DNA from: Lachnospiraceae bacterium
GTDB taxonomy: Bacteria; Bacillota; Clostridia; Lachnospirales; Lachnospiraceae
DNA length: 58,455 nucleotides
NCBI GenBank assembly: GCA_017436865.1
Contig: JAFSCH010000049.1
Coordinates: 1-58,455, forward strand
Direction: 5' to 3'
Under the pieces are notes generated by a model. It searched no databases. It worked only from the letters and a program-made list of their open reading frames with translations, and had not been told where the DNA came from. Within the stretch, counting starts at the first letter, position 1. Each line of letters begins with the position of its first letter. The translations under genes and the position numbers were made by a program. Positions 2,724 through 31,397 of this stretch are shown here, piece after piece.

Positions 2724-2810
2724 TAGGAAAATGCTGTAACGTAGAGGTGATTAAACAAGAATTTCGGCAGAAATTCTTGCCAAAGTGCGTGCGCTGGCAC
2801 GCACTATTTT
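2724..2810 (+). repeat. intergenic two-hairpin repeat, copy A
   Basis: Full copy of the repeat family. The 5' block TAGGAAAATGCTGTAAC is followed by hairpin 1 (CAAGAATTTC / GAAATTCTTG, loop GGCA) and hairpin 2 (AGTGCGTGC / GCACGCACT, loop GCTG), then TATTTT. Hairpin 2 differs in sequence from copies C, E and F, yet both arms change so that pairing is kept. The copy starts a few nucleotides after the glf terminator, and its 3' end overlaps the stop codon of the convergent gene. Confidence 0.85.
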
Positions 2811-4086
2811 AACAATATGAATTAAACAGCATACCACTATAAATACTTGTCATATACGGATTCACATAGCTTGTCGCAGGATTGCTGTATGCGCAAATGG
2901 CTCTTGATACATACTCCATTGGATCCAGGGCGATGGAATGGAGCTTACGAAGCACCTGGTTGCCGAAATTTTGTAGGTCATCAAGATCAGGCATCTTGGT
3001 TAGGCTATCATCGCGACGATATTTCAAAGTATTGTCTTCCTGAATTTCGATACCATATTTTTCGACTTTTTCTTTGTGGCGCCCTAGAAGTTTCTTCATT
3101 TCATCCAAAAGATGATGGTTATTGGCAACTTTTGCATTCTCATCATTAGTAACACCGTGAATGAATTGATTGTAACAGTTAACAAAGCTTTCTATATTAT
3201 AAGTTAGTGATTCCATATCAGGGTATAAACCAACTTCTGCATCGCGTGCTTTACTTTGTGGATTCAGAGTTAGTCGATAATTGCCATATGCAGGAAAGGT
3301 ATTTGCATAAGAGGAACGTTCCTTATCGTCTAAATAATAAGTAGCATTCGTGGCATTGTGAATGGATTTATTCAAACCAAGATAATGTACAATGCCCTTA
3401 GCTTGACTAGTATTATTATCTGTGATTTCAAAATGATTCTTGCTCTGAACTGGAATTCCATATGCGTCGGAGGTAATCTCAAGTGCAGTTCTTCCCTTGT
3501 TATTTAGTATGGTAGCGTGAAGACCAATATCAGAAGTATTAATCAAGCGTGCAAGCTTGTTTTGAAGCTGTTCATGTGTTTCGCCATCACTGATAGAAAA
3601 TTGCAATTCATAATGAAGCTTGTTGGTGATAATGTCAAAGGAATAGTCATCCGGAGGCATTAATACCATTTGGTTTGAGGTTAGAAAACTGCTCGTATTT
3701 ATTTGTGGGGAAGCAAATTCTTTTACTTCAAGATGAAAATGTTCCGGCGCAGAAGATTTATTGGCAGTATATTCAACCTCAACAAGCTCAGGGGTATTAC
3801 TGTAGGCTTTTTTAGAAGAAAATAGCATTTGTTGATCAGAACTTCCAAATGTTGTAATCGTCTGTTTAAGTGTTTCTGCGCTTTCCTTAAGTTGAACAGC
3901 ATATGCAATTGCCTGAGGTGAGGGATCTGTAAGATAAAGTGGCGCAAAACGATTTTTCAGCTGGATATCACTGTAAATATGCCGTAACTCATCACGGTCA
4001 TGGATATGACTGCGCGATGTACGTTTATTGTCATAAGTGGTAAGATAATGATTATAGATTTGAAATGCTGTAAAAGACATCGGCAT
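2809..4086 (-). CDS. FliD-like (flagellar hook-associated 2-like) protein, function uncertain
   Basis: A 425-residue protein without signal peptide or membrane segments. Residues roughly 165-215 (YELQFSISDGETHEQL and the following LARLINTSDIG region) resemble the FliD/hook-associated 'type III export to filament' proteins. The C-terminus (NPYMTSIYSGMLFNSYC) also looks like a filament-associated tail. The start is ATG 4086, because AAGGAGGG lies 7 nt upstream; an in-frame ATG at 4140 has no such site. It stands alone on the reverse strand, with its own promoter and no flagellar neighbours here. A true cap role is therefore an inference; a surface or structural protein that borrowed the fold is an alternative. 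Confidence 0.5.
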   Translation of the reverse strand: MPMSFTAFQIYNHYLTTYDNKRTSRSHIHDRDELRHIYSDIQLKNRFAPLYLTDPSPQAIAYAVQLKESAETLKQTITTFGSSDQQMLFSSKKAYSNTPELVEVEYTANKSSAPEHFHLEVKEFASPQINTSSFLTSNQMVLMPPDDYSFDIITNKLHYELQFSISDGETHEQLQNKLARLINTSDIGLHATILNNKGRTALEITSDAYGIPVQSKNHFEITDNNTSQAKGIVHYLGLNKSIHNATNATYYLDDKERSSYANTFPAYGNYRLTLNPQSKARDAEVGLYPDMESLTYNIESFVNCYNQFIHGVTNDENAKVANNHHLLDEMKKLLGRHKEKVEKYGIEIQEDNTLKYRRDDSLTKMPDLDDLQNFGNQVLRKLHSIALDPMEYVSRAICAYSNPATSYVNPYMTSIYSGMLFNSYC

Positions 4087-4182
4087 ACCGCACCCTCCTT
4101 TCTTGAACAAACTACCTTCATAAATCGGATTCCCGGACATGTAACTCCCCAGAACAGGTACAGTAAACCTATTATTAAGTAA

Positions 4183-4211
4183 AATATACCATAAGAACTT
4201 AGAAAAATCAA
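4183..4211 (-). promoter_or_regulatory. promoter for the FliD-like gene
   Basis: On the reverse strand, TTGATT, a 17-nt spacer and TATATT. It lies back to back with the rpmG promoter at 4253. Confidence 0.55.
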
Positions 4212-4252
4212 GAATTAGAGGGCGTTATGAAGGATTGTTTTTGAAAAAAAAG

Positions 4253-4281
4253 TTGACGCACATTTATGGTTATGATATATT
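4253..4281 (+). promoter_or_regulatory. promoter of the rpmG-secE-nusG operon
   Basis: TTGACG (4253-4258), a 17-nt spacer and TATATT (4276-4281). The leader to rpmG is about 125 nt. Confidence 0.65.
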
Positions 4282-4411
4282 TGTTAAGCAAGATGTGAAT
4301 TGGGTCTTTTTTTTATGCCAATTTTGCAAAAGGGCTCATTTACATGGTGTATGGTCGCAAGACCGGATTAGAACAAAGGTAAAGATTAGAAACGCTAGCG
4401 GAGGTGGAATT

Positions 4412-4561
4412 ATGCGTACAAAGATTACATTAGCTTGTACAGAGTGCAAACAGCGTAACTACAATACTACTAAGGAGAAGAAGAACCATCCTGATAGAAT
4501 GGAAATCAAGAAATATTGTAGATTCTGTAAGACTCACACATTACACAAAGAAACAAAATAA
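4412..4561 (+). CDS. rpmG: 50S ribosomal protein L33
   Basis: A 49-residue large-subunit protein of usual L33 length. It carries two zinc-ribbon cysteine pairs (CTEC at residues 9-12 and CRFC at 36-39), so it is the zinc-binding form. The ATG at 4412 follows GGAGGTGG. A longer in-frame extension to 4235 runs through the promoter and leader and is not real. It heads the rpmG-secE-nusG unit, the standard order in Firmicutes. Confidence 0.96.
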
Positions 4562-4589
4562 TCGGTAAAGGATCTACAGGAGGCATGCT

Positions 4590-4796
4590 ATGGGAGATTC
4601 AGCAAAGACAAATGCGCCAAAGACAAGTGCATGGAAAAACATCAAAACAGAATTTGGCAAGATTATCTGGCCAGATAAGAATGACTTGTTAAAGCAGTCA
4701 GTGGCTGTTCTCAGTATTTCAATTGTGGTGGGCCTTATCATTACTTTTCTGGATACTCTTATCCAGTATGGAATTAACTTCTTGACTGCATTATAA
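4590..4796 (+). CDS. secE: preprotein translocase subunit SecE
   Basis: Short 68-residue subunit of the SecYEG channel. It has a cytoplasmic amphipathic region containing the conserved FGKIIWPDKNDLLKQS segment (about residues 22-37), then one membrane helix of about 20 residues ending near the C-terminus. An AGGAGG site precedes the ATG. It lies 28 nt after rpmG and just before nusG, as expected. Confidence 0.96.
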   Translation: MGDSAKTNAPKTSAWKNIKTEFGKIIWPDKNDLLKQSVAVLSISIVVGLIITFLDTLIQYGINFLTAL

Positions 4797-4813
4797 GAGT
4801 GAGGATGAATAGT

Positions 4814-5542
4814 ATGGAAGAAAAAAAGGAACGCAAGGCAGTAGCCAAGAAAATTATTGAGCCAATGATGAAGGAATGGGAACCGATTTCTCCAAAGATG
4901 CCGGTGCCTGAACCTGAAGAAGTGGTTGAGGAAATTGTAGAAACTGAAGAGGTTGTAGAACAGATTGAAGAAGAACCAGTTGATAACGAGCCACGTAGCA
5001 GAGTTGCTTTAAGTGACAATAAGAGTGGTTTGGGTATGGGTTGGTATGTTGTTCATACCTATTCAGGCTATGAGAACAAGGTAAAAGCCAATATTGAAAA
5101 GGCAATTGAGAACAGACATCTTGAAAATGAGATTCTGGAGGTCAGAGTTCCTTTACAGGACGTTGTGGAAGTAAAAGATGGCGTTGAAAAGAGTAGCCAG
5201 AAGAAACTTTTTCCTGGATACGTTCTGTTACACATGGATGCAGATAATAATGATGCATGGTATGTGGTTCGTAATACAAGAGGTGTTACGGGATTTGTTG
5301 GACCGGGAAGTAAGCCGGTGCCGCTGACAGAGGAAGAACTCAGAGCATTAGATTTTGGTAATGAGATTGACGTGGAATTCGCAGAAGGAGACGTTATCTC
5401 AGTAACAGCAGGTGTTTGGAAAGATACCGTTGGTACTGTTCAGAAAATTGATGTAACTAGACAGACAGTAACAATCAATGTAGAAATGTTTGGTAGAGAA
5501 ACACCTGTTGAAATTAGTTTTACTGATGTAAAAAAACTTTAA
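4814..5542 (+). CDS. nusG: transcription elongation/termination factor NusG with an acidic N-terminal extension
   Basis: Binds RNA polymerase and modulates pausing, termination and transcription-translation coupling. The canonical protein starts at GWYVVHTYSGYE (around residue 76). The NGN domain, including the FPGYVLLHM strand, is followed by a C-terminal KOW domain with VTAGVWKDTVGTVQ. Upstream of that lie about 75 extra residues: a basic start, then a Glu/Pro/Val-rich stretch that is probably disordered. Typical NusG is about 175 residues; this one is 242. Start choice: GTGAGGA lies 8 nt before ATG 4814, better placed than for GTG 4799 or ATG 4805. Even the shortest plausible start keeps the extension. 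Confidence 0.95.
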   Translation: MEEKKERKAVAKKIIEPMMKEWEPISPKMPVPEPEEVVEEIVETEEVVEQIEEEPVDNEPRSRVALSDNKSGLGMGWYVVHTYSGYENKVKANIEKAIENRHLENEILEVRVPLQDVVEVKDGVEKSSQKKLFPGYVLLHMDADNNDAWYVVRNTRGVTGFVGPGSKPVPLTEEELRALDFGNEIDVEFAEGDVISVTAGVWKDTVGTVQKIDVTRQTVTINVEMFGRETPVEISFTDVKKL

Positions 5543-5578
5543 TCCTATTTCATTTGCATGATAATTGTGAAATAAGGA

Positions 5579-5607
5579 TTGACACGAATGCGTAGTTGTA
5601 ATAGAAT
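5579..5607 (+). promoter_or_regulatory. promoter of rplK-rplA
   Basis: Consensus TTGACA (5579-5584), a 17-nt spacer and TAGAAT (5602-5607). Transcription should start near 5614, at the first base of the leader hairpin. Confidence 0.8.
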
Positions 5608-5611
5608 ATTA

Positions 5612-5711
5612 GCCGGACTGTGAAGAAAAAAGTCCGCGTGGGAGGGCTATCCACCCAAACTACCACAAAACAGTTAATAGAGACTGAGAATAATTTTAGG
5701 AGGTGCCTATA
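5612..5711 (+). promoter_or_regulatory. rplK-rplA mRNA leader, probable L1 autoregulatory site
   Basis: The leader starts with a hairpin (CGGACT 5614-5619 / AGTCCG 5631-5636). GTGGGAGGG (5638-5646), CCACCC and ACTACCAC (5660-5667) follow. This GUGGGAGG...ACCAC arrangement mimics the L1 site of 23S rRNA and is the usual element by which free L1 represses the rplK-rplA mRNA. Binding by L1 is inferred from family knowledge. Confidence 0.65.
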
Positions 5712-6137
5712 ATGGCAAAGAAAGTAGAAGGATATATTAAATTACAGATTCCTGCCGCAAAAGCAACACCGGCTCCACCAGTTGGACCAGCACTTGGTCA
5801 GCATGGTGTAAACATTGTTGAATTTACAAAACAGTTTAATGCAAGAACAGCAGATCAGGAAGGTATGATCATTCCAGTAGTAATCACTGTTTATGCAGAT
5901 AGAAGTTTCAGCTTCATTACAAAGACTCCACCAGCAGCTGTTCTTTTAAAGAAGGCTTGTAACCTTAAGACTGCTTCTGCAGCACCAAATAAGAACAAAG
6001 TTGCTACTATTTCTAAAGCTAAGATTCAGGAAATCGCTGAATTAAAGATGCCTGACTTAAATGCAGCAAGCCTTGAGGCTGCTATGAGCATGATCGCAGG
6101 TACAGCAAGAAGTATGGGTATCACAGTAGAAGAATAA
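5712..6137 (+). CDS. rplK: 50S ribosomal protein L11
   Basis: Component of the GTPase-associated centre of the 50S subunit. The product is 141 residues, exactly the usual length, from ATG 5712 (TAGGAGG lies 7-8 nt upstream). The N-terminal [19 protein letters not shown] segment binds thiopeptides and contacts factors. The C-terminal half is the 23S rRNA-binding domain with [13 protein letters not shown]. An in-frame GTG at 5703 lies inside the ribosome binding site. First gene of the rplK-rplA unit. Confidence 0.98.
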
Positions 6138-6153
6138 GCGGAGGTAAAGAAGA

Positions 6154-6843
6154 ATGAAACATGGTAAGAAATATAATGAGTCCGCGAAGTTAGTTGATCG
6201 CGCAACTTTTTATGAAATCGAAGAAGCTGTATCTTTAGTTAAGAAGACTGCAACTGCAAAGTTCGATGAGACAGTAGAACTTCACATCAGAACAGGCTGT
6301 GACGGACGTCATGCTGATCAGCAGATCCGTGGTGCTGTAGTACTTCCAAACGGTACAGGTAAGACAGTTAAGGTTTTAGTATTCGCTAAGGGTGATAAGG
6401 TAGCAGAGGCAGAGGCTGCTGGTGCAGATTACGTTGGTGGCGAAGAGCTCATTCCAAAGATTCAGAATGATGGTTGGTTAGATTTCGACGTAGTAGTAGC
6501 TACACCTGATATGATGGGTGTTGTTGGTCGTCTTGGTAAGGTTTTAGGACCTAAGGGCTTAATGCCAAACCCTAAGGCTGGTACAGTAACAATGGATGTT
6601 ACAAAGGCTATCAATGATATCAAGGCTGGTAAGATTGAATACAGACTTGATAAGACAAACATTATTCACTGTCCAGTAGGAAAGGCTTCTTTCACAGAAG
6701 AGCAGTTAGGACAGAATATCAATGCTCTTTTAGAGGCTATTGTTAAGGCTAAGCCTTCAACATTAAAGGGACAGTACTTAAAGAGTATTACACTTACATC
6801 AACAATGGGACCTGGAGTAAAGGTTAGTGTTGCAAAGTTCTAA
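6154..6843 (+). CDS. rplA: 50S ribosomal protein L1
   Basis: L1-stalk protein that helps release deacylated tRNA, and the probable translational repressor of its own operon through the leader at 5612-5711. The product has 229 residues, normal length, with the signature [20 protein letters not shown] in the central domain. It starts 16 nt after rplK with a GGAGG site. An intrinsic terminator follows 13 nt after the stop, so the usual continuation into rplJ is broken here. Confidence 0.98.
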
Positions 6844-6856
6844 TCTATGATATTGA

Positions 6857-6882
6857 GACCTCGGTTATACCGGGGTCTTTTT
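6857..6882 (+). terminator. intrinsic terminator after rplA
   Basis: GACCTCGG and CCGGGGTC pair around TTATA, followed by TTTTTG. Confidence 0.85.
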
Positions 6883-6946
6883 GCACATAAATTATATGTA
6901 TATGAGAGATATGTTTTATAGGATATGACATGTAGGATAAGAGGGT

Positions 6947-8221: not shown

Positions 8222-8260
8222 AAAAAGAGTGAGAAAAGTGTAAAAACATAAAAAATACTG

Positions 8261-8290
8261 TTGACACAAAAGAATAGATTGTGATATTAT
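8261..8290 (+). promoter_or_regulatory. promoter of rplJ-rplL
   Basis: TTGACA (8261-8266), an 18-nt spacer and TATTAT (8285-8290), placed just upstream of the L10 leader. Confidence 0.75.
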
Positions 8291-8296
8291 ATCAAA

Positions 8297-8398
8297 GGTT
8301 TATCGAACCGTGCCGAAGACAGTAGGTGCTGAGAGAAATCAAAGCGTAAGTGTATCGCCTACCGAGGAAGAAGAGTTTTATTGATTATGATTCTATTT
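8297..8398 (+). ncRNA. ribosomal L10 leader RNA
   Basis: The leader contains CCGAAGACAGTAGGTGC (about 8313-8329) and the complementary GCCTACCGAGGAAG (about 8357-8370). AGTAGGTG and CGCCTACC form the closing stem, and the GAAGACAG and GAGGAAGA flanks are the conserved kink-turn-like sequence. This is the known L10(L12)4 autoregulatory leader of Firmicutes. The whole gap 8222-8546 is explained by promoter, leader, attenuator and a repeat remnant. Confidence 0.85.
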
Positions 8399-8426
8399 CT
8401 CTGTCTTCCTGAAGGCAGAGTTTTTT
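8399..8426 (+). terminator. attenuator terminator in the rplJ leader
   Basis: CTCTGTCTTC and GAAGGCAGAG pair, followed by TTTTTT, between the L10 leader and rplJ. Its position is that of the transcription attenuator used in L10 autoregulation. Confidence 0.75.
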
Positions 8427-8432
8427 ATATCG

Positions 8433-8469
8433 TAGGAAAGTGCTGTAACATAGTGGCAATCACTTTTTT
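8433..8469 (+). repeat. intergenic repeat, copy B (internally deleted)
   Basis: The 5' block TAGGAAAGTGCTGTAACATA runs directly into GTGGCAATCACTTTTTT, the last arm and T-tract of the element. Hairpin 1 and the 5' arm of hairpin 2 are missing. The copy begins 6 nt after the T-tract of the L10 attenuator, in the untranslated leader of rplJ. Confidence 0.75.
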
Positions 8470-8546
8470 ATTACCATATAGAACTCCAATTCGGCAGGAT
8501 ATGGATGTAAGTTCAGATCCAATAGAATCTATAAGGAGGTAAGAAA

Positions 8547-9083
8547 ATGGCAAAGATCGAATTAAAACAGCCTATAGTAGAAGAAATTTCTGCTCACATT
8601 AAGGATGCTGCGTCTGTTGTTGTTGTTGACTATCGTGGAATTACAGTAGCAGAAGACACAGATCTTCGTAAGCAGCTTCGTGAAGCAGGTGTTGTTTACA
8701 AGGTTTACAAGAACACAATGATGACACGTGCATTCGCTGGTACTGAGTTTGAAGGCTTAACAGCAAGCCTTGAAGGTACAAATGCAATTGCTATCAGCAA
8801 GGATGATGCAACTGCTCCAGCAAGAGTTTTAGCAAAGTTTGCTAAGGGATGTAAGGCACTTGAAATCAAGGCAGGTGTTGTAGAAGGTGTCGTTTATGAC
8901 GCTAAGGGAATGGCTGAAATCGCAAACATTCCTTCAAGAGAAGAATTACTTTCCAAGTTCCTTGGAAGCATTCAGTCTCCTATTACAAACTTCGCTCGTG
9001 TGCTTAATCAGATTGCAGAAAAGGGTGGCGCTGACGCATGTGAAGCAGCAGCTCCTGCAGCAGAAGAAGCAACAGCAGAATAA
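8547..9083 (+). CDS. rplJ: 50S ribosomal protein L10
   Basis: Stalk base protein that anchors L7/L12 dimers on 23S rRNA; with L12 it represses its own mRNA through the upstream leader. The product has 178 residues with the family N-terminus (VVVDYRGITVAEDTDLR at about 25-41) and the VYKNTMMTRAF strand. The C-terminal L12-binding helix is followed by an Ala/Glu-rich tail. A strong AAGGAGGT site precedes the ATG. The mRNA leader also carries a repeat remnant (8433-8469). Confidence 0.98.
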   Translation: MAKIELKQPIVEEISAHIKDAASVVVVDYRGITVAEDTDLRKQLREAGVVYKVYKNTMMTRAFAGTEFEGLTASLEGTNAIAISKDDATAPARVLAKFAKGCKALEIKAGVVEGVVYDAKGMAEIANIPSREELLSKFLGSIQSPITNFARVLNQIAEKGGADACEAAAPAAEEATAE

Positions 9084-13712: not shown

Positions 13713-16700
13713 ATGACTGAGAATAAAAATGAATCATGCCAGTCTATATCCTTTGATGCGATTAAGATTGGTTTAGCATCCCCAGAGAAAATCAGAGAGT
13801 GGTCTAAGGGCGAAGTTACAAAGCCGGAAACCATTAACTACAGAACTCTGAAGCCAGAACGTGATGGTCTTTATTGTGAAAAAATCTTTGGACCTAGCAA
13901 GGATTGGGAATGTCACTGTGGTAAATACAAGAAGATTAGATATAAAGGTGTAATCTGTGACCGTTGTGGTGTTGAGGTTACAAAATCAAGCGTAAGAAGA
14001 GAACGTATGGGGCACATTGAGCTTGCTGCCCCAGTGTCTCATATTTGGTATTTTAAGGGTATTCCAAGCCGTATGGGCTTAATCCTTGACCTTACTCCTA
14101 GAGTATTGGAAAAGGTATTATATTTTGCTTCATATATCGTGCTTGATCCTATGGAGACAGACTTTGAATACAAGCAGGTTCTGTCTGAAAAGGAATATCA
14201 GGATGGTAGAGAAAAATGGGGCAATAAGTTCCGCGTAGGAATGGGCGCAGAGGCTATTAAGGAATTGCTTGAGGCAATCGATCTTGAAAAAGAATGCGAA
14301 GACTTAATGGCAGAATTAAGAAACGAGAATACTAAGGGACAGAAGCGTGCAAAGATTGTAAAGAAGCTTGAGGTTGTAGAATCCTTTAGAAATTCAGGAA
14401 ACAGACCTGAGTGGATGATTATGGATGCAGTTCCTGTTATTCCACCAGATTTACGTCCTATGGTTCAGTTAGATGGTGGACGTTTTGCAACATCTGACTT
14501 GAATGACTTATATAGAAGAATTATTAACAGAAATAATCGTTTGAAGAGACTTCTTGAATTAGGTGCGCCAGATATTATCGTGCGCAACGAAAAGAGAATG
14601 CTTCAGGAAGCGGTTGATGCTTTAATTGATAATGGTAGACGTGGTCGTCCAGTTACAGGACCTGGTAACAGAGCATTGAAGTCTCTTTCGGATATGCTTA
14701 AGGGTAAATCAGGACGTTTCCGTCAGAACTTATTAGGAAAGCGTGTAGACTATTCTGGACGTTCCGTTATTGTCGTTGGACCGGAACTTAAGATTTATCA
14801 GTGTGGTTTGCCAAAAGAAATGGCAATCGAGCTTTTCAAACCATTTGTTATGAAAGAGCTTGTTGCAAGACAGATTTCACAGAATATTAAGCATGCAAAG
14901 AAACTTGTTGAAAAGTTAGATTCTCAGGTGTGGGATGTGTTGGAAGAAGTAATTAAGGAGCATCCGGTTATGTTGAACCGAGCACCGACACTTCATAGAC
15001 TTGGTATTCAGGCATTTGAACCGATTCTTGTTGAAGGTAAGGCTATTAAGCTTCATCCGTTAGTATGTACAGCGTTTAATGCGGACTTCGACGGTGACCA
15101 GATGGCTGTGCATCTTCCATTATCAGTAGAAGCACAGGCTGAGTGTCGTTTCCTTCTTCTTTCACCAAACAACTTATTGAAGCCTTCTGATGGTGGTCCG
15201 GTAGCCGTTCCTTCACAGGATATGGTACTTGGTATTTACTATTTAACACAGGAAAGACCTGGTGCTGTTGGTGAGGGTATGTGCTTCAGAAACATTAATG
15301 AAGCAATCCTTGCTTATGAGAATGGAGAATGTACACTTCACTCTAGAATCAAGGTAAGAGTTTCTAAGACAATGGCTGATGGCGAAGTTAAGGTTGGTAT
15401 TGTTGAATCTACTTTAGGAAGATTTATCTTCAATGAGATTCTTCCACAGGATTTAGAGTTTGTTGATAGAACTGTTCCAGAAAACGAGTTGTTGCTTGAG
15501 GTTGATTTCCATGTTGGAAAGAAGGGATTAAAGCAGATTCTGGAAAAGGTTATTAATATTCATGGCGCAACAAAGACAGCAGAAGTATTAGATAGCATTA
15601 AGGCTATGGGGTACAAGTACTCTACAAGAGCTGCTATGACTGTATCCATTTCTGATATGACTGTACCTGCTGAAAAGCAGCAGATGCTTGATGAAGCGCA
15701 GGCAACCGTTGACCGTATTACAGTAAACTTCCGTCGTGGTCTTATGACAGAGGAAGAACGTTATAAGGCTGTTGTTGAGACTTGGAAGGAAACAGATGAT
15801 AAGTTAACACAGACACTTCTTAGTGGTTTGGATAAGTACAATAATATCTTTATGATGGCTGATTCTGGTGCCCGTGGTTCTAACCAGCAGATTAAGCAGC
15901 TTGCAGGTATGCGTGGTTTGATGGCTGATACAACAGGTCGTACCATTGAGTTGCCAATTAAGTCAAACTTCCGTGAAGGACTTGACGTATTGGAGTACTT
16001 TATGTCTGCGCATGGTGCTCGTAAGGGTCTTTCCGATACAGCGCTTCGTACGGCTGACTCTGGTTACTTGACCAGACGAATGGTTGACGTTTGTCAAGAT
16101 TTGATTATTCGTGAAATTGATTGTTGCGAAGGCAAGGACTTTATTCCAGGAATGGAAGTTGCTGCATTCATGGAAGGTAAGGAAACAATTGAAGGATTAA
16201 AGGATCGTATCACAGGAAGATATTCTTGTGAGGATATTCTTGATAGAGATGGTAATGTTCTGGTTAAGAAGAATCATATGATTACTCCTAGCCGTGCGGC
16301 TAAGATTATGAGCGCAGGTGTTGATAAGAATGGTGAGCCAATCGAAAAAGTTAAGATTAGAAATATTCTTTCTTGTAGATCTCATGTTGGTATCTGTGCA
16401 AAGTGTTACGGTGCTAATATGGCAACAGGTGAGGCTGTTCAGATTGGTGAAGCAGTAGGTATTATTGCAGCTCAGTCAATTGGTGAACCTGGTACACAGT
16501 TGACCATGCGTACATTCCATACTGGAGGTGTAGCCGGTGACGATATTACACAGGGTCTTCCTCGAGTTGAGGAGCTTTTCGAGGCAAGAAAGCCTAAGGG
16601 ACTTGCAATTATTGCTGAAATTGGTGGTACTGCTACGATTAAGGATACGAAGAAGAAACGTGAAGTTATCGTATCTGATGGTATAAATGAGAAGACATAT

Positions 16701-17372
16701 CTCATTCCTTATGGTTCTAGAATTAAGGTTATGGATGGGGCTGTTTTGGAAGCTGGTGATGAGCTTACCGAAGGTAGTATCAATCCACATGACTTATTGG
16801 AAATCAAGAAGATTGGTGCTGTTCAGGATTATTTGCTTCGTGAGGTTCAGAGAGTTTACCGTCTTCAGGGTGTAGACATTGCAGATAAGCATATTGAAGT
16901 TATCGTACGTCAGATGTTAAAGAAGAGACGTATTGAGACAAGTGGTGATAGTGATTTACTTCCAGGAACTCTTGTTGACAGACTTGAGCTTGATGATGTA
17001 AATGAAAAGCTTCTTGCAGAAGGAAAACAGCCAGCAGAAGCTAAGGACGTTATTCTTGGTATTACTAAGGCTGCTCTTGCAACGAACTCCTTCTTGTCTG
17101 CTGCATCATTCCAGGAAACAACTAAGGTTCTTACAGAAGCAGCAATTAAGGGTAAGGTTGACCCATTAATTGGTCTAAAAGAAAATGTATTAATTGGTAA
17201 GTTGATTCCAGCTGGTACTGGTATGAAGAGATACCGCAATGTAAAGTTAGACTGTGATATGAATATGGATGATGACTTAGATTTTGATGAAGAAGTAGAT
17301 TTCATTGAAGAAGAGGAAGCATTTGAAGAAACACAGGATACAGTAGAGGTAGTAGAAACTTCAGAAGAATAG
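13713..17372 (+). CDS. rpoC: DNA-directed RNA polymerase subunit beta'
   Basis: Holds the catalytic magnesium and forms the clamp. The product has 1219 residues. Near the N-terminus is the zinc-binding [20 protein letters not shown]; the active-site motif NADFDGDQM falls at about residues 455-463. A second zinc site ([13 protein letters not shown]) lies in the C-terminal third. Like RpoB it ends in an acidic tail ([19 protein letters not shown] region). AAGGAGAG precedes the ATG. A strong terminator and two repeat copies follow. Confidence 0.99.
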
Positions 17373-17378
17373 GATTAG

Positions 17379-17414
17379 AAAGAGTATCGTGTGAAAACGC
17401 GATACTCTTTTTTT
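17379..17414 (+). terminator. intrinsic terminator after rpoC
   Basis: AAAGAGTATCG and CGATACTCTTT pair, followed by seven T residues. Confidence 0.92.
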
Positions 17415-17419
17415 AATAT

Positions 17420-17507
17420 TAGGAAATTGCTGTTACGTTGTGGTGGTTAAACAAGAATTTCGACAGAAATTCTTGCTAGAGATTGCCGCTGGGCAATCTC
17501 TTTTTTT
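17420..17507 (+). repeat. intergenic two-hairpin repeat, copy C
   Basis: Full copy. TAGGAAATTGCTGTTAC is followed by hairpin 1 (CAAGAATTTC 17452-17461 / GAAATTCTTG, loop GACA) and hairpin 2 (AGAGATTGCC 17478-17487, loop GCTG, GGCAATCTCT 17492-17501), ending in TTTTTTT. It begins 5 nt after the T-tract of the rpoC terminator. Confidence 0.9.
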
Positions 17508-17512
17508 AATGT

Positions 17513-17540
17513 TAGGGAATTGTTTGGCGTGCACTTTTTT
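17513..17540 (+). repeat. intergenic repeat, copy D (internally deleted)
   Basis: TAGGGAATTG runs into TTTGGCGTGCACTTTTTT. Only the two ends of the element remain; the 3' end resembles the GCACGCAC arm of copy A. It starts 5 nt after the T-tract that ends copy C. Its own T-tract supplies the stop codon of the convergent gene at 17539. Confidence 0.6.
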
Positions 17541-25010: not shown

Positions 25011-25028
25011 TATTTTGACAAAATATGC

Positions 25029-25057: not shown

Positions 25058-25132
25058 CAGAATAGTTGAGTGTAGTTTTGAAATATGAAACTAATTTAAT
25101 TTATTTATATCTTTTAAGGAGGACTATTCAAA

Positions 25133-26320
25133 ATGGCAAAGGCTAAATTTGACAGAACCAAACCACATTGTAACATTGGTACAATCGGTCACGTAGACCA
25201 TGGTAAAACAACTACAACAGCAGCTATTACAAAGGTTTTAGCTGAAAGAGTATCTGGTAACGAGAAGGTAGACTTCGAGAACATCGATAAGGCTCCAGAA
25301 GAGAGAGAAAGAGGTATTACTATCTCTACAGCTCACGTTGAGTACCAGACAGAGAAGAGACATTATGCACACGTTGACTGTCCAGGACATGCTGACTATG
25401 TAAAGAACATGATCACAGGTGCTGCTCAGATGGACGGCGCTATCTTAGTAGTAGCTGCAACTGACGGTGTTATGGCTCAGACAAAGGAGCACATCCTTCT
25501 TTCTCGTCAGGTAGGTGTACCTTACATCGTTGTATTCATGAACAAGTGTGATATGGTAGATGATCCTGAGTTATTAGAGTTAGTAGAAATGGAAATTACA
25601 GAGCAGCTTGAAGAGTATGAATTCTCTGATTGCCCAATCGTTCGTGGTTCTGCTCTTAAGGCTCTTGAAGATCCAAACGGAGAATGGGGCGACAAGATTA
25701 TGGAATTAATGGATACAGTAGATTCTTTCATTCCAGATCCAGAGCGTGATACAGATAAGCCATTCCTTATGCCTATCGAAGATATCTTCACAATTACAGG
25801 TCGTGGTACCGTTGCTACTGGTAGAGTAGAGCGTGGTATCCTTCATGTAAACGATGAAGTAGAAATCGTTGGTATCAGCGAAGAAACAAAGAAGACTGTA
25901 TGTACAGGTATCGAAATGTTCCGTAAGCTTCTTGATGAGGCTCAGGCTGGTGATAACATCGGTGCTCTTCTTCGTGGTATTCAGAGAACAGAAATCCAGA
26001 GAGGACAGGTTCTTTCTAAGCCAGGTTCTGTAACTTGCCACAAGAAGTTTACAGCTCAGGTTTACGTTTTAACAAAGGATGAAGGTGGACGTCATACTCC
26101 TTTCTTCAACAACTATAGACCACAGTTCTACTTCAGAACAACAGACGTTACTGGTGTTTGTGAATTACCAGCTGGTACAGAAATGTGTATGCCTGGTGAT
26201 AACGTAGAAATGACTATCGAACTTATCCATCCAATCGCTATGGAGCAGGGTCTTACATTCGCTATCCGTGAAGGTGGACGTACAGTAGGTTCTGGTAGAG
26301 TTGCTACAATCATCGAGTAA
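25133..26320 (+). CDS. tuf: elongation factor Tu
   Basis: Delivers aminoacyl-tRNA to the ribosome. The product has 395 residues with G1 [22 protein letters not shown] in switch I, G3 DCPGHADY and G4 NKCDM. Domains II and III follow with [14 protein letters not shown] and GGRHTPFF, ending in [17 protein letters not shown] precedes the ATG. It has its own promoter in addition to possible read-through from fusA, and a terminator at 26395. Confidence 0.99.
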
Positions 26321-26394
26321 TTTATTTACTAGGTAGATTGTTTATACGATTCTAAGTTATTAATTTATATATTGTGTTCAAACGGTTGATAAAT

Positions 26395-26429
26395 GAGGCT
26401 TTCAAGGTTTTCCTTGAAGGCCTCTTTTG
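26395..26429 (+). terminator. intrinsic terminator after tuf
   Basis: GAGGC-TTCAAGG and CCTTGAA-GCCTC pair around TTTT with one bulge each side, followed by TTTTGA. Confidence 0.8.
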
Positions 26430-26434
26430 ATGAG

Positions 26435-26452
26435 GTGCGCCTAGCGGCGCAC
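26435..26452 (+). other. lone hairpin resembling hairpin 2 of the repeat
   Basis: GTGCGCC, loop TAGC, GGCGCAC. It is similar in size and position to hairpin 2 of copy A, but the conserved 5' block and the T-tract are absent, so this may be a relic. Confidence 0.35.
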
Positions 26453-26521
26453 GTTTCTAAGAATTATAAAAAGAAATAGAAACTTATTTTTTGGTGATTA
26501 GCATATAAACATGTAAAAAAG

Positions 26522-26551
26522 ACTTCCGAGATTTTTCTTGGGAGTTTTTTT
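26522..26551 (+). terminator. terminator-like hairpin upstream of repeat copy E
   Basis: ACTTCCGAG and CTTGGGAGT pair with G-U wobbles around a T-rich loop, followed by seven T residues. No gene ends directly here. It may be a back-up terminator for tuf and is the site behind which copy E starts. Confidence 0.6.
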
Positions 26552-26557
26552 GTGAGA

Positions 26558-26644
26558 TAGGAAATTGCTGTAACATAGTGGTAGTTAATAAAGAATTTGC
26601 GGAGCAAATTCTTTGAGTGATTGCCGCTGGGCAATCACTTTTTT
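26558..26644 (+). repeat. intergenic two-hairpin repeat, copy E
   Basis: TAGGAAATTGCTGTAAC block, hairpin 1 AAAGAATTTGC / GCAAATTCTTT (loop GGA), hairpin 2 GTGATTGCC / GGCAATCAC (loop GCTG), TTTTTT. Hairpin 1 differs from the other copies at both arms with pairing kept, a compensating change. It begins 6 nt after a T-tract. The gap 26321-26879 is filled by terminators and copies E and F. Confidence 0.9.
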
Positions 26645-26650
26645 ATGTGA

Positions 26651-26737
26651 TAGGAAATTGCTGTTATGTAGTGGTAGTTAGACAAGAATTTCGTAAGAAA
26701 TTCTTGCTAGTGTTTGCCGCTGGGCAATCACTTTTTT
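26651..26737 (+). repeat. intergenic two-hairpin repeat, copy F
   Basis: Tandem neighbour of copy E with a 93-nt period. TAGGAAATTGCTGTTATG, hairpin 1 CAAGAATTTC / GAAATTCTTG (loop GTAA), hairpin 2 GTGTTTGCC / GGCAATCAC (loop GCTG, one mismatch), TTTTTT. It starts 6 nt after the T-tract of copy E. Confidence 0.9.
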
Positions 26738-26879
26738 ACTGAGGAGATTACCTATAAGTATTATGTGATAGAGAAGAATTTTATACTAAGATTCTAGGAA
26801 ATTTATATGTAATGTTTTATGAAAAAAATGTAATAATATGGTATAAAAGGGTAGAGTATAAGTGAAGGGAGGTTTTGTA

Positions 26880-27437
26880 ATGGGAGAACAAATGATTATA
26901 AAACTATTGTTAGAGCGTTCAGAGGACGCAATACGTGAATTGAGTATGGAGTATGGAAAAACATGCAAATGTTTGGCATTCAAGATATTAAGTAATGAGC
27001 AAGATGTTGAGGAATGTATAAATGATACTTATTTGGCAGTGTGGAATAGTATTCCACCTAAGGAACCTAATCCTCTAGCAGCGTATATTTATCGTATAGT
27101 TAAGAATATTGCATTGAAAAAATATCGCAATAATACTGCACAGAAAAGAAATCATTACTATGATGTTATTTTAGAAGAGGTAGATGAGTTTCTTTCTGTA
27201 AATGAAACGGTAGAAAGTGAAATTCTTGCAAAAGAAATTTCAAATAAAATAAACATTTTCTTAGGGACGTTAAAGGAAAAAGATAGAGTAATATTTGTAC
27301 AACGATATTGGCTCTGTTATTCCATTGAAGAGATAGCAACAAATAGCGGAGCGAGTAAAAATTATGTAACGGTACATTTGCACAGAACAAGAGAAAAATT
27401 GAAAGATTATTTGAAAGAGGAGGGATACTATGACTGA
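26880..27437 (+). CDS. ECF-type RNA polymerase sigma factor
   Basis: A 185-residue alternative sigma factor. Sigma region 2 is at about residues 15-90 (AIRELSMEYGKTCKCLAFKI, then DVEECINDTYLAVWN). Region 4 is at about 125-180, with the helix-turn-helix YSIEEIATNSGASKNYVTVH. ATG 26880 follows GGGAGG; an in-frame GTG at 26862 is upstream of that site. It overlaps the next gene by 8 nt; this coupling to a membrane protein is typical of sigma/anti-sigma pairs. Target promoters are unknown. Confidence 0.88.
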   Translation: MGEQMIIKLLLERSEDAIRELSMEYGKTCKCLAFKILSNEQDVEECINDTYLAVWNSIPPKEPNPLAAYIYRIVKNIALKKYRNNTAQKRNHYYDVILEEVDEFLSVNETVESEILAKEISNKINIFLGTLKEKDRVIFVQRYWLCYSIEEIATNSGASKNYVTVHLHRTREKLKDYLKEEGYYD

Positions 27438-28470
27438 TTGGTTAAAGGAAAAAATACTTGATGGGATAGAGGATAGGTATCTAAGCGAAGCAATGGATTA
27501 TAGTAAAACTCATAGAGTGAGAGAACATAGAGTAATTAAAATATTTGGAAAAATGGTTGCATGTATTGCCGGTATTCTTGGCTTGTCATTTTCTTCCTTG
27601 GCTATTGCAGTTTCAGCGGGCAATATGACAGCATACGATATTTTATATACATTATATCCAGATATAGCAGTAAAATTAATGCCGGTGAATGCTTGTTGTG
27701 AGGATAATGGTATACAAATGGAGGTAGAAGGAGTTTCTATTCAGGATAATTGTGCTTATGTCTATATATCCATGCAGGATTTAGTAGGGAAACGTATAGA
27801 TGAAACCATTGATTTGTTTGATAGTTATAGTATACATACAAATGCAGATCAGATAGGAAGTTGTTCCTTGGTTGATTTTAATGAGGAAAACAAAAAGGCC
27901 ACATTTTTAATCAGCGTCAAACATATGGATGACAAAACCATTGAAGGGAAAAGATTGACATTTCGTGTTTCTAAGTTTTTAACAGGGAAAAGTGAAGTAC
28001 AAGAGGAATTGGCACAAATTAGTTTGGATTCCATTGTTATAGTAACAGAAACACAAATGGAAGAAGATTTAGATATTAGGGGAAGCTCTTATAGGCAGGA
28101 TAGTGAATTGGAAGGAAAGAGCCTAGAATATCTATGTGCTGATGATAGTAAGTCATTTGTTGCTACATCAGGAGTGACTGTTACAAATTATGGATTTATA
28201 CATGATAAGCTACATATACAAGTGCATTATGATAAAATTTTGAAGTACGACAATCATGGATATGTATATTTGTTAGATGCAGATGGAAATAGGGTATTAG
28301 CAGAAGGAAGTAGAGGATTTTGGGATGAGGAAAGAAACGGAAGTTATGAGGAATACATATTTGATGTAGATAATAAGGAGTTAGACCAATATGCAATTTA
28401 TGGGCATTTCTTTACTTGCCAGAATCTTGTAGAGGGTGAATGGGAGGTAAATCTTACAATAGAAGAATAG
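27430..28470 (+). CDS. DUF4179-like membrane protein, probable anti-sigma partner
   Basis: A 346-residue protein: about 38 cytoplasmic residues, one membrane helix at about 39-62 (IFGKMVACIAGILGLSFSSL), then a roughly 280-residue beta-rich outside domain. The topology and the 8-nt overlap with the sigma gene are those of an ECF anti-sigma factor whose cytoplasmic part holds the sigma factor. The outer part resembles DUF4179-type domains as I remember them. No zinc-binding HxxxCxxC motif is present, so it would not be a ZAS-type anti-sigma factor. No transport genes follow. Confidence 0.6.
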   Translation: MTDWLKEKILDGIEDRYLSEAMDYSKTHRVREHRVIKIFGKMVACIAGILGLSFSSLAIAVSAGNMTAYDILYTLYPDIAVKLMPVNACCEDNGIQMEVEGVSIQDNCAYVYISMQDLVGKRIDETIDLFDSYSIHTNADQIGSCSLVDFNEENKKATFLISVKHMDDKTIEGKRLTFRVSKFLTGKSEVQEELAQISLDSIVIVTETQMEEDLDIRGSSYRQDSELEGKSLEYLCADDSKSFVATSGVTVTNYGFIHDKLHIQVHYDKILKYDNHGYVYLLDADGNRVLAEGSRGFWDEERNGSYEEYIFDVDNKELDQYAIYGHFFTCQNLVEGEWEVNLTIEE

Positions 28471-28521
28471 GAAAAAGATAATTGTTTTTTTATGTATTAA
28501 GACGTAAAAAGTTTTTGCCAT

Positions 28522-28549
28522 CTTACCATCAAGAAATGTACCGCTTAAC
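28522..28549 (+). promoter_or_regulatory. candidate LytTR operator upstream of the LytTR gene
   Basis: CTTACC (28522) and CTTAAC (28544), two similar hexamers in direct orientation 22 nt apart, lie 56 nt before the LytTR gene. LytTR proteins bind direct repeats about two helical turns apart, and GTTAAG (the complement of CTTAAC) is a familiar half-site. The match is short. Confidence 0.3.
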
Positions 28550-28604
28550 GAGAAAACATTGAAGCAAAAAATAAATTGTATTAGTATGATTTTGGAGGTG
28601 CAAG

Positions 28605-29039
28605 ATGGAAATTGAGATAAGAAAACACATAGAAGAGAAGGCAAGAGTCATTATCGAATGCAAAGAAGTAACCAATAATATACAGAAATTGCAGTCTTAT
28701 ATTAGAGCTTTTGATAACCGGATATTGACTAAAAAAGAAGACGAAATGGTATTTGTGGAGATGTCAGATATTTTGTATTTTGAAACAGTAGATAATAGAA
28801 CATTTTTATATACGAAGGATGAGGTAGTAGAAGTAAAACAGCGTTTATATGAATTAGAAGCACGATTGTCAGAAGAAGATTTCTTTCGTTGTTCTAAGTC
28901 AATTGTTGTGAATATAAATAAGATTAAAAATCTCAAACCACAGATAGATCGTACGATTATGGTAACGATGTGTAATGGTGAAAAGCTTATAATTTCAAGA
29001 AGGTATGTGAAAGCCTTTAAGGATATACTAGGAATTTAG
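28605..29039 (+). CDS. LytTR-domain transcriptional regulator
   Basis: A 144-residue stand-alone regulator. The LytTR DNA-binding domain covers about residues 45-142, with VEMSDILYFETVDNRTFLYT, FFRCSKSIVVNINKI and KLIISRRYVKAFKDIL as landmarks. There is no receiver domain, so it is not a two-component regulator. A TTGGAGG site precedes the ATG. It sits 11 nt before a membrane protein. Such pairs form 'LytTR regulatory systems', in which the membrane protein inhibits the regulator. A close relative is encoded at 50082. Confidence 0.88.
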   Translation: MEIEIRKHIEEKARVIIECKEVTNNIQKLQSYIRAFDNRILTKKEDEMVFVEMSDILYFETVDNRTFLYTKDEVVEVKQRLYELEARLSEEDFFRCSKSIVVNINKIKNLKPQIDRTIMVTMCNGEKLIISRRYVKAFKDILGI

Positions 29040-29050
29040 GAGAGGGCTAT

Positions 29051-29503
29051 ATGAAGAATTTGAAAACTTTTTTTATATGGATAAGAAACGGTGTTGCATT
29101 TTGTTTTACTTGGTTAATGGTGGTGATATTGGTTAGAAATATATATCTGGGGATAGAAAATATATCTACAATAGGAATTTTTAAGCTTTTGATATTTGTA
29201 TGTGGTGGAGTAATATTGTTTACAGCTCTTTTCTCAGAAACGTTGATAAAAGGTATTAGCTTTACAGCGAAGCTGACAGGATTTATGGTCTTGTTTAGCG
29301 TGTATGAAACCGTTATTTTCTATTGGCTGGGAATATTCTCTGGAAAAGGAAAGGTGATACAATGGATGCTCTTTTGGGGAATTATTTTCATGATGTATGG
29401 AATCAGTATGGTTGGATATGAATTGTATAGTAGGAAAAAAGCAAAGGAATACGATAATGCGCTATATGCTTATCAAGAAAAAAGAGGGGGAAAATCATGG
29501 TAG
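29051..29503 (+). CDS. DUF3021-like membrane protein, probable inhibitor of the LytTR regulator
   Basis: A 150-residue protein with four predicted membrane helices (about residues 12-30, 42-60, 70-90 and 102-122) and a charged cytoplasmic tail (ELYSRKKAKEYDNALYAYQ). Placement directly after the LytTR gene with a GGAG site, the size and the topology match DUF3021-type partners. It overlaps the next membrane protein gene by 7 nt. Inhibition of the regulator is inferred from known LytTR systems. Confidence 0.65.
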   Translation: MKNLKTFFIWIRNGVAFCFTWLMVVILVRNIYLGIENISTIGIFKLLIFVCGGVILFTALFSETLIKGISFTAKLTGFMVLFSVYETVIFYWLGIFSGKGKVIQWMLFWGIIFMMYGISMVGYELYSRKKAKEYDNALYAYQEKRGGKSW

Positions 29504-30048
29504 AAATGCTTGATAAAATGAGAATGGATTCTGCGCGGAAGAATAAACGTGGGATTGCATTTATTATAGCATCTATTTTTCTATGGTTAGGCATTTTTCT
29601 TGTTCATAGTACAGATTTGTCAATTAGAGAAAAGAATCTATATACGTGGTATGTTACTGGATGTTTAATGCCCTTTGCGTTATTGATAACAAAAATGTTA
29701 AAGATTAAATTTCAAAATAAAGAAAATCCCATTAATCAATTAGGATTATTGATTACATTAAATGAAATGCTTTATATTTTAATTGCTTGTTGGGTATGTA
29801 CTGCTATACCCGAAAAAATGGTAATGGTATTGGCTATGATATTTGGGGGGCATCTATTACCTTTTGGATGGATATATATGTCAAAAAGTTATACGTTTTC
29901 TGCTATTGTGATTACGGTAGGTATTCTAGTGGTAGGCTGTGTGTGTTCTGCTAAGGTAGTTGCAGGAGTAATGATGCTTTATGAGATAATATTTGCAATA
30001 TGCTTATGGTTAGAAAATAAGAACACATCGACAGAATTTGATTTGTAG
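29497..30048 (+). CDS. DUF7010-like membrane protein
   Basis: A 183-residue polytopic protein with about six membrane helices and a short charged N-terminus (MRMDSARKNKRG). I recognise it only as resembling DUF7010 membrane proteins, which lack a known function. The 7-nt overlap with the preceding gene and an AGGGGG site make it the third gene of the LytTR unit. It may be the transport-like or stress-related output of that unit. Confidence 0.5.
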   Translation: MVEMLDKMRMDSARKNKRGIAFIIASIFLWLGIFLVHSTDLSIREKNLYTWYVTGCLMPFALLITKMLKIKFQNKENPINQLGLLITLNEMLYILIACWVCTAIPEKMVMVLAMIFGGHLLPFGWIYMSKSYTFSAIVITVGILVVGCVCSAKVVAGVMMLYEIIFAICLWLENKNTSTEFDL

Positions 30049-30140
30049 CCGTTTACAGGATGTAAGATTCCATGTAAACTATAGATATGGATATCAAAAG
30101 AGAAAGTATTTAGTTCATAAACACGTAGGGGGATAGCGAA

Positions 30141-31265
30141 GTGGAAACATCAAAAGTATATTACACAAGCTTTAAAACAACATCACATGAAAATTTATTG
30201 CAGAAATTGCGCCGTCTGTGTATCACAGCGGGAATGAAAGAGATTGATTTCGCAGATAAATATGCGGCGATTAAGATTCATTTTGGTGAATATGGTAACT
30301 TGGCTTTTTTACGTCCTAATTATGCAAAGGTAGTAGCAGATATCGTAAAGGAGCAAGGGGGTAAGCCATTTTTGACAGACTGCAATACTCTCTATGTAGG
30401 AAGCCGAAAGAATGCGCTTGACCATATGGATACAGCATATGCTAACGGATTTTCGCCATTTTCTACAGGATGTCATGTAATCATTGCAGATGGTCTTAAG
30501 GGAACAGATGAAGCATTGGTGCCGATAGATGGAGAGTATGTAAAAGAAGCAAAAGTTGGACAAGCGGTAATGGACGCAGATATTTTTATCTCTTTGAATC
30601 ATTTCAAAGGGCATGAAGCGACAGGTTTTGGTGGTGCACTGAAAAATATAGGTATGGGGTGCGGTTCCAGAGCTGGTAAGATGGAGATGCACAATCAAGG
30701 AAAGCCTGCGGTTAATCAGACTAAGTGTGTAGGTTGTGGAGCTTGTTTGAAAATTTGTGCTCATGATGCACCTGTGATAGAAAATGGAAAGGCAACCATA
30801 GACTTAAAGAAATGTGTGGGCTGTGGCCGTTGTATCGGAGCATGTCCGAAGGATGCGGTACATCCGACACAGGAGAATTCCAATGATGTCTTAAACTATA
30901 AGATAGCAGAGTATTCCAAAGCTGTTTGCGATGGAAGACCATGCTTCCATATTTCTTTGATTTGTGATGTATCTCCTAATTGTGACTGCCACTCTGAAAA
31001 CGATGTACCTATTATTCCAAATGTAGGAATGTTGGCATCTTTTGACCCAGTTGCTCTTGATGTGGCATGTGCTGATTTGTGTAATCGACAGCCAATGCTA
31101 GAGAATCATAGTGTGTTACATGAGAATTGTATGGCACATCAGGAAGAAGCTAAAAAACATGATCATTTTCATATGACGCATCCAGATACAAACTGGAAGA
31201 GTTGTATTGAGCATGCAGTAAAAATTGGTATCGGTAATGACCAGTATGAATTGATTGAGATATAA
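30141..31265 (+). CDS. DUF362 protein with two [4Fe-4S] clusters
   Basis: A 374-residue cytoplasmic iron-sulfur protein. The DUF362 domain (about residues 30-185) includes KIHFGEYGN and SLNHFKGHEATGFGGALKN. An inserted two-cluster ferredoxin module at about 190-240 has CVGCGACLKIC and CVGCGRCIGACP. The DUF362 part resumes to the C-terminus, which is rich in Cys and His. The family is found widely in anaerobes, and its reaction is not established; electron transfer or redox cofactor handling is plausible. The start is GTG 30141 with an upstream GGGGG site. It is monocistronic, followed by a strong terminator and repeat copy G. Confidence 0.8.
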   Translation: METSKVYYTSFKTTSHENLLQKLRRLCITAGMKEIDFADKYAAIKIHFGEYGNLAFLRPNYAKVVADIVKEQGGKPFLTDCNTLYVGSRKNALDHMDTAYANGFSPFSTGCHVIIADGLKGTDEALVPIDGEYVKEAKVGQAVMDADIFISLNHFKGHEATGFGGALKNIGMGCGSRAGKMEMHNQGKPAVNQTKCVGCGACLKICAHDAPVIENGKATIDLKKCVGCGRCIGACPKDAVHPTQENSNDVLNYKIAEYSKAVCDGRPCFHISLICDVSPNCDCHSENDVPIIPNVGMLASFDPVALDVACADLCNRQPMLENHSVLHENCMAHQEEAKKHDHFHMTHPDTNWKSCIEHAVKIGIGNDQYELIEI

Positions 31266-31282
31266 TATAAAGGATGTTTTAC

Positions 31283-31310
31283 AAAGGGAAATCGGTTGAT
31301 TTCCCTTTTT
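31283..31310 (+). terminator. intrinsic terminator after the DUF362 gene
   Basis: AAAGGGAAATC and GATTTCCCTTT pair around GGTT, followed by T residues. Confidence 0.9.
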
Positions 31311-31316
31311 GATTTC

Positions 31317-31397
31317 TAGGAAATTGCTGTAACGTAGTGTTATAAAACAAGAATTTCGTAAGAAATACGTGCAAAGTGCGCAGGAACGCACTGTTTT
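31317..31397 (+). repeat. intergenic two-hairpin repeat, copy G (diverged)
   Basis: TAGGAAATTGCTGTAACGTAGTG is intact. Hairpin 1 (CAAGAATTTC / GAAATACGTG, loop GTAA) has mismatches. Hairpin 2 is reduced to GTGCG / CGCAC with a CAGGAA loop, and the T-tract is GTTTT. It begins 6 nt after the T-tract of the DUF362 terminator. Confidence 0.8.

Follow-up and report, generated by a model that had tools for sequence, protein, structure and literature searches.

Hairpin repeats behind intrinsic terminators in a Lachnospiraceae genome: a probable non-autonomous mobile DNA element

Contig JAFSCH010000049.1 of a Lachnospiraceae bacterium, analysed here over its whole length of 58,455 nucleotides (nt; the window), carries a family of intergenic repeats spanning positions 2724..31397, each with a conserved 5' block, two hairpins and a T-tract. 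Small structured repeats are common in bacteria, and the initial annotation of this family took the paired changes in its stems for the signature of a selected RNA structure. The locus thus raises the question of whether the hairpins are maintained by selection on a transcript or belong to a DNA unit that moves. In our best explanation, the repeat is probably a mobile DNA element, non-autonomous and about 93 nt long, which inserts in a single orientation immediately 3' of the T-tract of an intrinsic terminator. Comparison across loci and genomes shows, for the sequences at hand, dispersal, a target preference, tandem stacking, empty sites, covarying stems and internal deletion derivatives.

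The five copies first described proved correct in position and strand. Their 5' blocks start at 2724, 17420, 26558, 26651 and 31317, all on the + strand, with 1, 1, 0, 2 and 0 mismatches to TAGGAAATTGCTGTAAC, respectively. They also point the same way as the upstream gene, as had been claimed: a + strand open reading frame (ORF) lies upstream of all five, the 26651 copy sitting behind the 26558 copy. Read 5' to 3', the element consists of a spacer, the block TAGGAAATTGC, about six variable bases, GTAGTGG or GTAAACC, a short A-rich stretch, a first hairpin (HP1), a second hairpin (HP2) and the T-tract.

Landing sites and dispersal

A terminator-like hairpin with a T-tract precedes 129 of the 137 copies with the strict 5' motif, as compared with about 32% of random positions (up to 2000 were drawn), under a rule that is lenient. 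Four or more consecutive T residues occur within 14 nt upstream of 119 of these 137 copies and of 10% of random positions. In a second set of 155 copies, a T4 run was nearby in 132, and its distance to TAGG was exactly 6 nt in 89 of the 132. Past the element's T-tract, the right flank favoured A or G at +1 and was otherwise without consensus. From the T-tract distances and this flank pattern, the element begins on the left at the host T-tract and stops on the right where its own T-tract ends. The unit length of about 85 nt given initially has to be corrected to about 93 nt: in many copies the unit starts just after the upstream T-tract, some 6 nt ahead of TAGG, and 26558 and 26651 are spaced by 93 nt. 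Copies directly follow a terminator, either that of the gene upstream or that of the copy before, a regularity that is absent from the initial annotation.

By reading, the ends are not inverted copies of each other, so that terminal inverted repeats are lacking; left spacers and right flanks do not match, leaving no sign of a target duplication. The spacer, most often 6 nt long, has the consensus ATGTAA, in which the outermost two positions carry about 1.1 bits. The idea that it is host sequence was rejected by reading, as lone and tandem copies have the same patterned spacers; spacers do differ, though, among otherwise identical copies. With ORFs called mechanically, spurious ones included, the nearest long ORF upstream ran in the same direction for 86 of the 137 copies and in the opposite one for 27, and was missing for 24; 27 copies overlapped a long ORF.

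HP2 of the 17420 and 26558 copies was called a terminator by an independent scan. HP2 with its T-tract is, by this prediction, terminator-like, which allows copies to stack in tandem, often in mixed subtypes. Mixed neighbours were found at 26558/26651 and at loci L003, L011, L013, L016, L025 and L057. Sequential insertion explains such tandem neighbours of unlike subtype, and duplication does not.

The further copies expected of a genuine family are numerous. The own genome (G000; 4.20 Mb in 169 contigs, 7.68% contamination) gave 58 BLAST matches to the 26558 copy, and its 5' block, at three mismatches or fewer, occurred at 222 sites, as against 23 for a reversed control. The commonest HP2 (at most one mismatch) was found at 90 sites, 81 of them exact, and at none in the control. 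The repeat is not a chance pattern; about 200 5'-block sites stand above background. A MAFFT alignment misaligned HP2 between subtypes, so counts were taken from a model of one subtype instead (R1, 24 copies), which has at least 117 matches in G000. One 88-nt sequence is identical in eight copies at seven G000 loci, and in the relative G011 five copies at five loci are identical through HP2, one T-tract being shorter by one.

R1 matched 17 of the 38 genomes of the genus, with stems that differ between relatives. The exact pattern TAGGAAATTGC-N4-7-GTA matched 19 of the 38, together with 14 of 295 genomes of the order, and a longer pattern with RW added matched 14 of 397 genomes of the family. 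Outside the genus, reading revealed true copies only in G179 and G337, which belong to two other genera of the family. Ten other matched family genomes were read (G579 apart), of which nine lacked the features of the element and G412 may hold a decayed copy. The scattered order-wide matches outside G179, most of them not read, were as rare as in the control. Two exact patterns had no match in viral contigs, and a distant BLAST search of plasmids and phages gave none. The named records with copies are Lachnospiraceae metagenome assemblies, some from goat gut.

Filled and empty versions of the same site were then compared. Behind rpoC, the element and a remnant precede ATGGGATTACATG in G000, whereas the site is empty in G014, where it reads terminator-T7-CGCT-ATGGAATTACATG. 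G021 has a 5'-only copy there and G011 a copy without HP1; the other 17 of the 20 relatives read have no 5' block (two mismatches or fewer) behind the rpoC terminator. In G042, a TAGGAAATATGC lies further downstream of this terminator. At the 2724 site, the element is missing from G021, where both flanking genes are conserved, and G011 bears two copies, both of its own subtype. The element is missing as well from G001, which has only the upstream gene in common; G044 has only the downstream gene in common and contains a TGGGGAAATT that could be a remnant. Behind the EF-Tu gene, no copy was found in 17 relatives and no match in the fragment of G040, the fragments of G023 and G045 being too short to judge.

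Truncation on one side, the mark of target-primed synthesis, was considered and rejected as a rule, since 5'-only copies and three 5'-truncated copies (L275, L277 and L279) both occur. The latter, which came from six stretches read after the HP2 search, still lie behind a terminator by reading.

Paired stems and competing explanations

The stems of the element differ widely and remain paired. HP1 is CAAGAATTTC-GTAA-GAAATTCTTG in G000, CAAGAATCAG-CTATG-CTGATTCTTG in G011 and CAAAAAGC-GAA-GCTTTTTG in G043. HP2 keeps a loop that is mostly GCTG or GCCG (G-C-Y-G) despite quite different stems, with the exceptions GCAG, GCGG and GGCG; in the 155-copy set, whose HP2 detector at times mistakes HP1 for HP2, 99 copies have GCTG or GCCG. 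Four of the five window copies gave RNA fold z-scores of -4.0, -4.5, -4.8 and -5.0, with no shuffle as good, and their hairpins also form in single-stranded DNA folding. The decayed copy at 31317 (z = -1.25) has a minimum-energy RNA fold other than the two-hairpin one. The two hairpins ascribed to every copy are thus confirmed for four of five.

Paired stem changes beside a largely constant 5' block were part of the original description, and this covariation withstood both shuffled and slid controls. Among 136 model matches (123 distinct rows), 19 of 19 pairs vary on both sides and 98.2% of cells are paired, as compared with 75.6% after shuffling and 31.6-50.0% after sliding by one to three columns; the covariation score is 0.445, and 0.108 when shuffled. 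Fitting the alignment to the structure favours pairing, but the gap to the slid controls is still large. The pair cells of 102 of the 136 rows (16 named antisense, partial or spurious rows, duplicates and rows without a recognisable 5' start being set aside) comprise 1770 Watson-Crick pairs, 18 G.T, 6 A.C and 20 other mismatches. This excess of G.T over A.C, the sole hint of selection at the RNA level or on one strand, leans toward selection on the sense strand, as RNA or as single-stranded DNA, in cells that are not independent. A third RNA helix, AAUUGC with GG-N-RGUU, was taken from the folds of 17420 and 26558 and rejected: it is paired in 80.2% of cells versus 80.0% when shuffled and scores 0.114 versus 0.118 for covariation, though its paired fraction exceeds that of slid versions (7-57%).

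Several copies lack HP1 or HP2, and others consist of the 5' part only. L280 carries its HP2 loop in the opposite orientation to the remainder of the element, which may be a trace of inversion within the hairpin or of template switching. In L084, L099 and L228 of G009, a second palindromic segment lengthens HP1 into a much longer stem. A short stretch starting TAGGAAA occurs in L053 after 1402, in L076 after 1588 and in L094 beside a minus-strand copy; in L076 it is part of a small palindrome, and it may represent a related mini-hairpin or truncated insertions. Rfam, proposed at the outset as a check, contains no match to the element. In the whole window only L10_leader reaches the threshold of Rfam 15, 20 copy-bearing loci gave nothing but one tRNA, and a permissive search of 26500-26780 gave four matches far under threshold, none of them relevant.

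Repeats can covary strongly without selection on RNA. A host-selected RNA, serving as a 3' untranslated structure or a small RNA with hairpins kept by selection on the transcript, would account for the two-sided changes at all 19 pairs with 98.2% pairing, the 18 G.T against 6 A.C on the sense strand, the z-scores of -4.0 to -5.0 in four of five copies and the direction shared with the upstream gene. We nevertheless give it only a small chance. The copies lie beyond the point where the upstream terminator ends the transcript, not within it, 19 of the 38 genus genomes have no pattern match, orthologous sites are empty, a number of copies lack HP1 or HP2, and G.T is tolerated in single-stranded DNA too. 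Of the supposed signature of a selected RNA structure, the covariation is therefore strong, whereas RNA selection is not established, because identical copies occur at unrelated loci, orthologous sites are empty and the position behind terminators is regular; the copies act as an inserting DNA element. For such a mobile element, a trans-acting enzyme would recognise single strands by the 5' block, the hairpins or both, and would cut after a T-tract on either side, that of the host at the left end and that of the element at the right. Cutting in this manner would leave no inverted ends and no target duplication and would make each copy a fresh target. For the host, the insertion would place a second terminator behind the gene's own, and would thus be nearly harmless.

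Several observations weigh against the mobile element. No movement was observed, no mobiliser was found, and 23 of the 155 copies have no T4 run within 22 nt. The empty rpoC site is off a perfectly clean insertion by 4 nt. No gene family convincingly recurs in the neighbourhood of copies; four clusters are found in three or four genomes each, and two of these are common receptor or transporter types by reading. With a minimum of three sites, by model or by pattern, required of a carrier (15 genomes, leaving 23 others), neither candidate gene family tracked the element: Y1_Tnp, present in 20 of the 38 genus genomes, was found in 8 of the 15 carriers and in 12 of the 23 non-carriers, and RVT_1, present in 26 of the 38, in 8 of the 15 and 18 of the 23. 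G011 and G021, both 96% complete and rich in copies, lack both. We also know of no parallel in IS200-type ends to the conserved TAGGAAATTGC. All four Y1 matches of G000 and four of its five reverse transcriptase matches lie at or near contig ends (L240-L247); the draft breaks at such mobile genes, which are probably more numerous than it shows.

With these points in mind, mobilisation in trans by a Y1 transposase of the IS200/RAYT type is conceivable, if unlikely. The absence of inverted ends and target duplication and the oriented insertion 3' of a short motif are as in IS200/IS605 (PMC7290912), the hairpins lie near the ends, and G000 has IS200-type genes, two copies of which start behind terminators. 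On the other hand, there is no Y1 match in the element-rich G009, G011, G014, G021 and G043, a weak objection as drafts lose mobile genes and may lack this one, and the ends of the G000 IS200-type loci read (L240, L241 and L243) share no evident sequence with the element. A bacterial SINE, in which RNA is copied into terminator sites by the reverse transcriptase of a group IIC intron, seems very improbable to us. These introns do insert at intrinsic terminator motifs (PMC4424553), and the RVT_1 matches of G000 include genes that are group II intron-like by reading, but the presence of the enzyme does not follow the element (no RVT_1 match in G004, G011, G014, G021, G040, G041 and G043), no intron of Rfam matches, and no one-sided truncation rule is seen. 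Spread without any transposase is also quite unlikely in our view: DNA- or RNA-templated synthesis, paused at a terminator hairpin, would slip between T-tracts, copy the unit and return, and the same template switching would keep the palindromes perfect. T-tracts at both borders, the missing mobiliser, internal deletions that skip hairpins, the inverted HP2 loop of L280 and paired changes with few one-sided intermediates agree with it. Template switching in DNA replication has indeed been proposed to create and maintain hairpins, giving compensatory changes without RNA selection (PMC8794818). This route leaves the conservation of TAGGAAATTGC, the GTA motif and the HP2 loop across three genera unexplained, and there is no sign of ordinary terminator-bounded sequences spreading in this way, for which no search was made. 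In a related form, 'terminator hopping', a stalled polymerase with no dedicated mobiliser would switch from the host T-tract to the T-tract before a copy, copy the element and switch back. We regard this as improbable; if true, any sequence made of a hairpin plus a T-tract could propagate itself, and the covariation of the stems would be a by-product of the same switching and not the outcome of RNA selection.

Copies in the window and their neighbours

Neighbouring genes were named via NCBIfam (UDP-galactopyranose mutase, L10, rpoC and EF-Tu). Copy 1 (2719..2810, +) has its 5' block from 2724, HP1 at 2756-2779, HP2 of the GCGTGC type at 2784-2805 and a T-rich tail. The hairpin upstream of it (2682-2718) is without a long T run, and the copy lies between convergent ORFs, 1526-2665 on the + strand (UDP-galactopyranose mutase) and 2809-4140 on the - strand. 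Copy 2 (17415..17506, +; 5' block from 17420) has HP1 at 17452-17475 and HP2 of the AGAGATTGCC type at 17478-17501, and follows the rpoC terminator (17377-17414; rpoC 13713-17372). Copy 3 (26552..26644, +; 5' block from 26558, HP1 26590-26614, HP2 26615-26640) lies behind a hairpin and T-tract at 26520-26551, downstream of the EF-Tu gene (25133-26320); BLAST found two more 100% copies of it in its own genome, on contigs C88 and C10. Copy 4 (26645..26737, +) is a different subtype, with HP1 at 26683-26706 and HP2 at 26709-26732 containing one T.T mismatch, and stands in tandem behind the T-tract of copy 3 with a 93-nt period. Copy 5 (31311..31397, +; 5' block from 31317) follows the terminator (31283-31310) of ORF 30141-31265 and is decayed: two pairs of HP1 (31348-31371) are mismatched, and HP2 (31375-31392) is cut down to AGTGCG/CGCACT.

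The letters that the initial annotation gave to the copies do not follow coordinate order. Its stems AAAGAATTTGC/GCAAATTCTTT and GTGATTGCC/GGCAATCAC are from 26558, AGAGATTGCC/GGCAATCTCT from 17420 and AGTGCGTGC/GCACGCACT from 2724. The five copies listed are real, but two internally deleted remnants had been overlooked. One, at 8427..8469 on the + strand (8433-8469 from the 5' block), has the 5' block fused to the last bases of HP2 and the T-tract. It lies directly behind the attenuator-like T-tract of the L10 leader and upstream of rplJ (8547-9083); the Rfam L10_leader (RF00557, 8295-8436) ends where the remnant starts. Seen over 8295-8469, the leader thus has an element remnant lodged between its T-tract and rplJ. 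The L10 leaders of G001, G004, G011, G044 and G045 lack the remnant. The other, at about 17507..17540 (+), is a tandem second copy behind copy 2, in which direct reading shows TAGGGAATTGTT fused to TGGCGTGCACTTTTTT. The element alters the ends of important genes, behind rpoC and EF-Tu, as well as the L10 leader region.

Comparison with known systems

Among the dispersed structured repeats of Firmicutes are bcr1 of the Bacillus cereus group and EFAR of Enterococcus. The layout was unfamiliar when first noted, and the literature searched gave no description of this repeat family, nor of any family that uses intrinsic terminators as landing sites. The element would renew its landing site by its own terminator-like end, giving mosaic tandem arrays. 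Having species-specific subtypes, sites both filled and empty, and about 200 occurrences of the 5' block beyond background, it offers a clean system for asking how 93 nt move without an evident parent.

The end of the element resembles that of SPRITE of Streptococcus pneumoniae, which is described alongside RUP and BOX as an AT-rich short repeat with a terminator-like hairpin and a U-rich tract, enriched behind genes (PMC3049150). Both are short and interspersed, end in a terminator-like structure and lie behind genes, and the portion of PMC3049150 at hand names no SPRITE mobiliser. As described there, SPRITE has one 18-bp stem, whereas the present element has two stems and an unpaired 5' block and is placed behind an existing terminator. 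REP, REPIN and BIME sequences with RAYT are small intergenic palindromic repeats, present in hundreds of copies and often in tandem, which are thought to be non-autonomous and moved as single strands (PMC3116915, PMC8266576). In these accounts, REP palindromes have a tetranucleotide, mostly GTAG, directly before them and RAYT genes nearby; the element has neither. By reading, its HP1 is preceded by GTTAGA, GTTAAA or TTTAAA and its HP2 by CCAA or TTTG, not by GTAG or GGAG; many copies do contain GTAG, but some 11 nt upstream of HP1, and others have GTAA instead.

PATE and IS200/IS605 elements likewise have no terminal inverted repeats, make no target duplication, insert in an oriented manner 3' of a short motif and have hairpin ends (PMC7290912). 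They differ in that no parent with the element's ends was found, and in that the element targets the T-tract of terminators and has a conserved TAGGAAATTGC. Two IS200-type copies of G000, in L241 (about 820-855) and L243 (about 1060-1094), start directly behind terminator-like hairpins, which suggests that terminators are shared landing sites for unrelated elements. Group IIC introns also insert at intrinsic terminator motifs (PMC4424553), but such an intron is a full ribozyme, while the element is about 93 nt long, matches no Rfam intron and contains no reverse transcriptase.

Membership in REP/PATE or in SPRITE is not shown. In the functional sense, the filled and empty sites and the 129 of 137 copies behind terminator-like hairpins class the element, on comparative grounds, as a terminator-targeting mobile element. 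By analogy, it would work like a non-autonomous hairpin element of the REP/REPIN or PATE kind, settled at the safe sites that group IIC introns use too, and with an end that resembles SPRITE.

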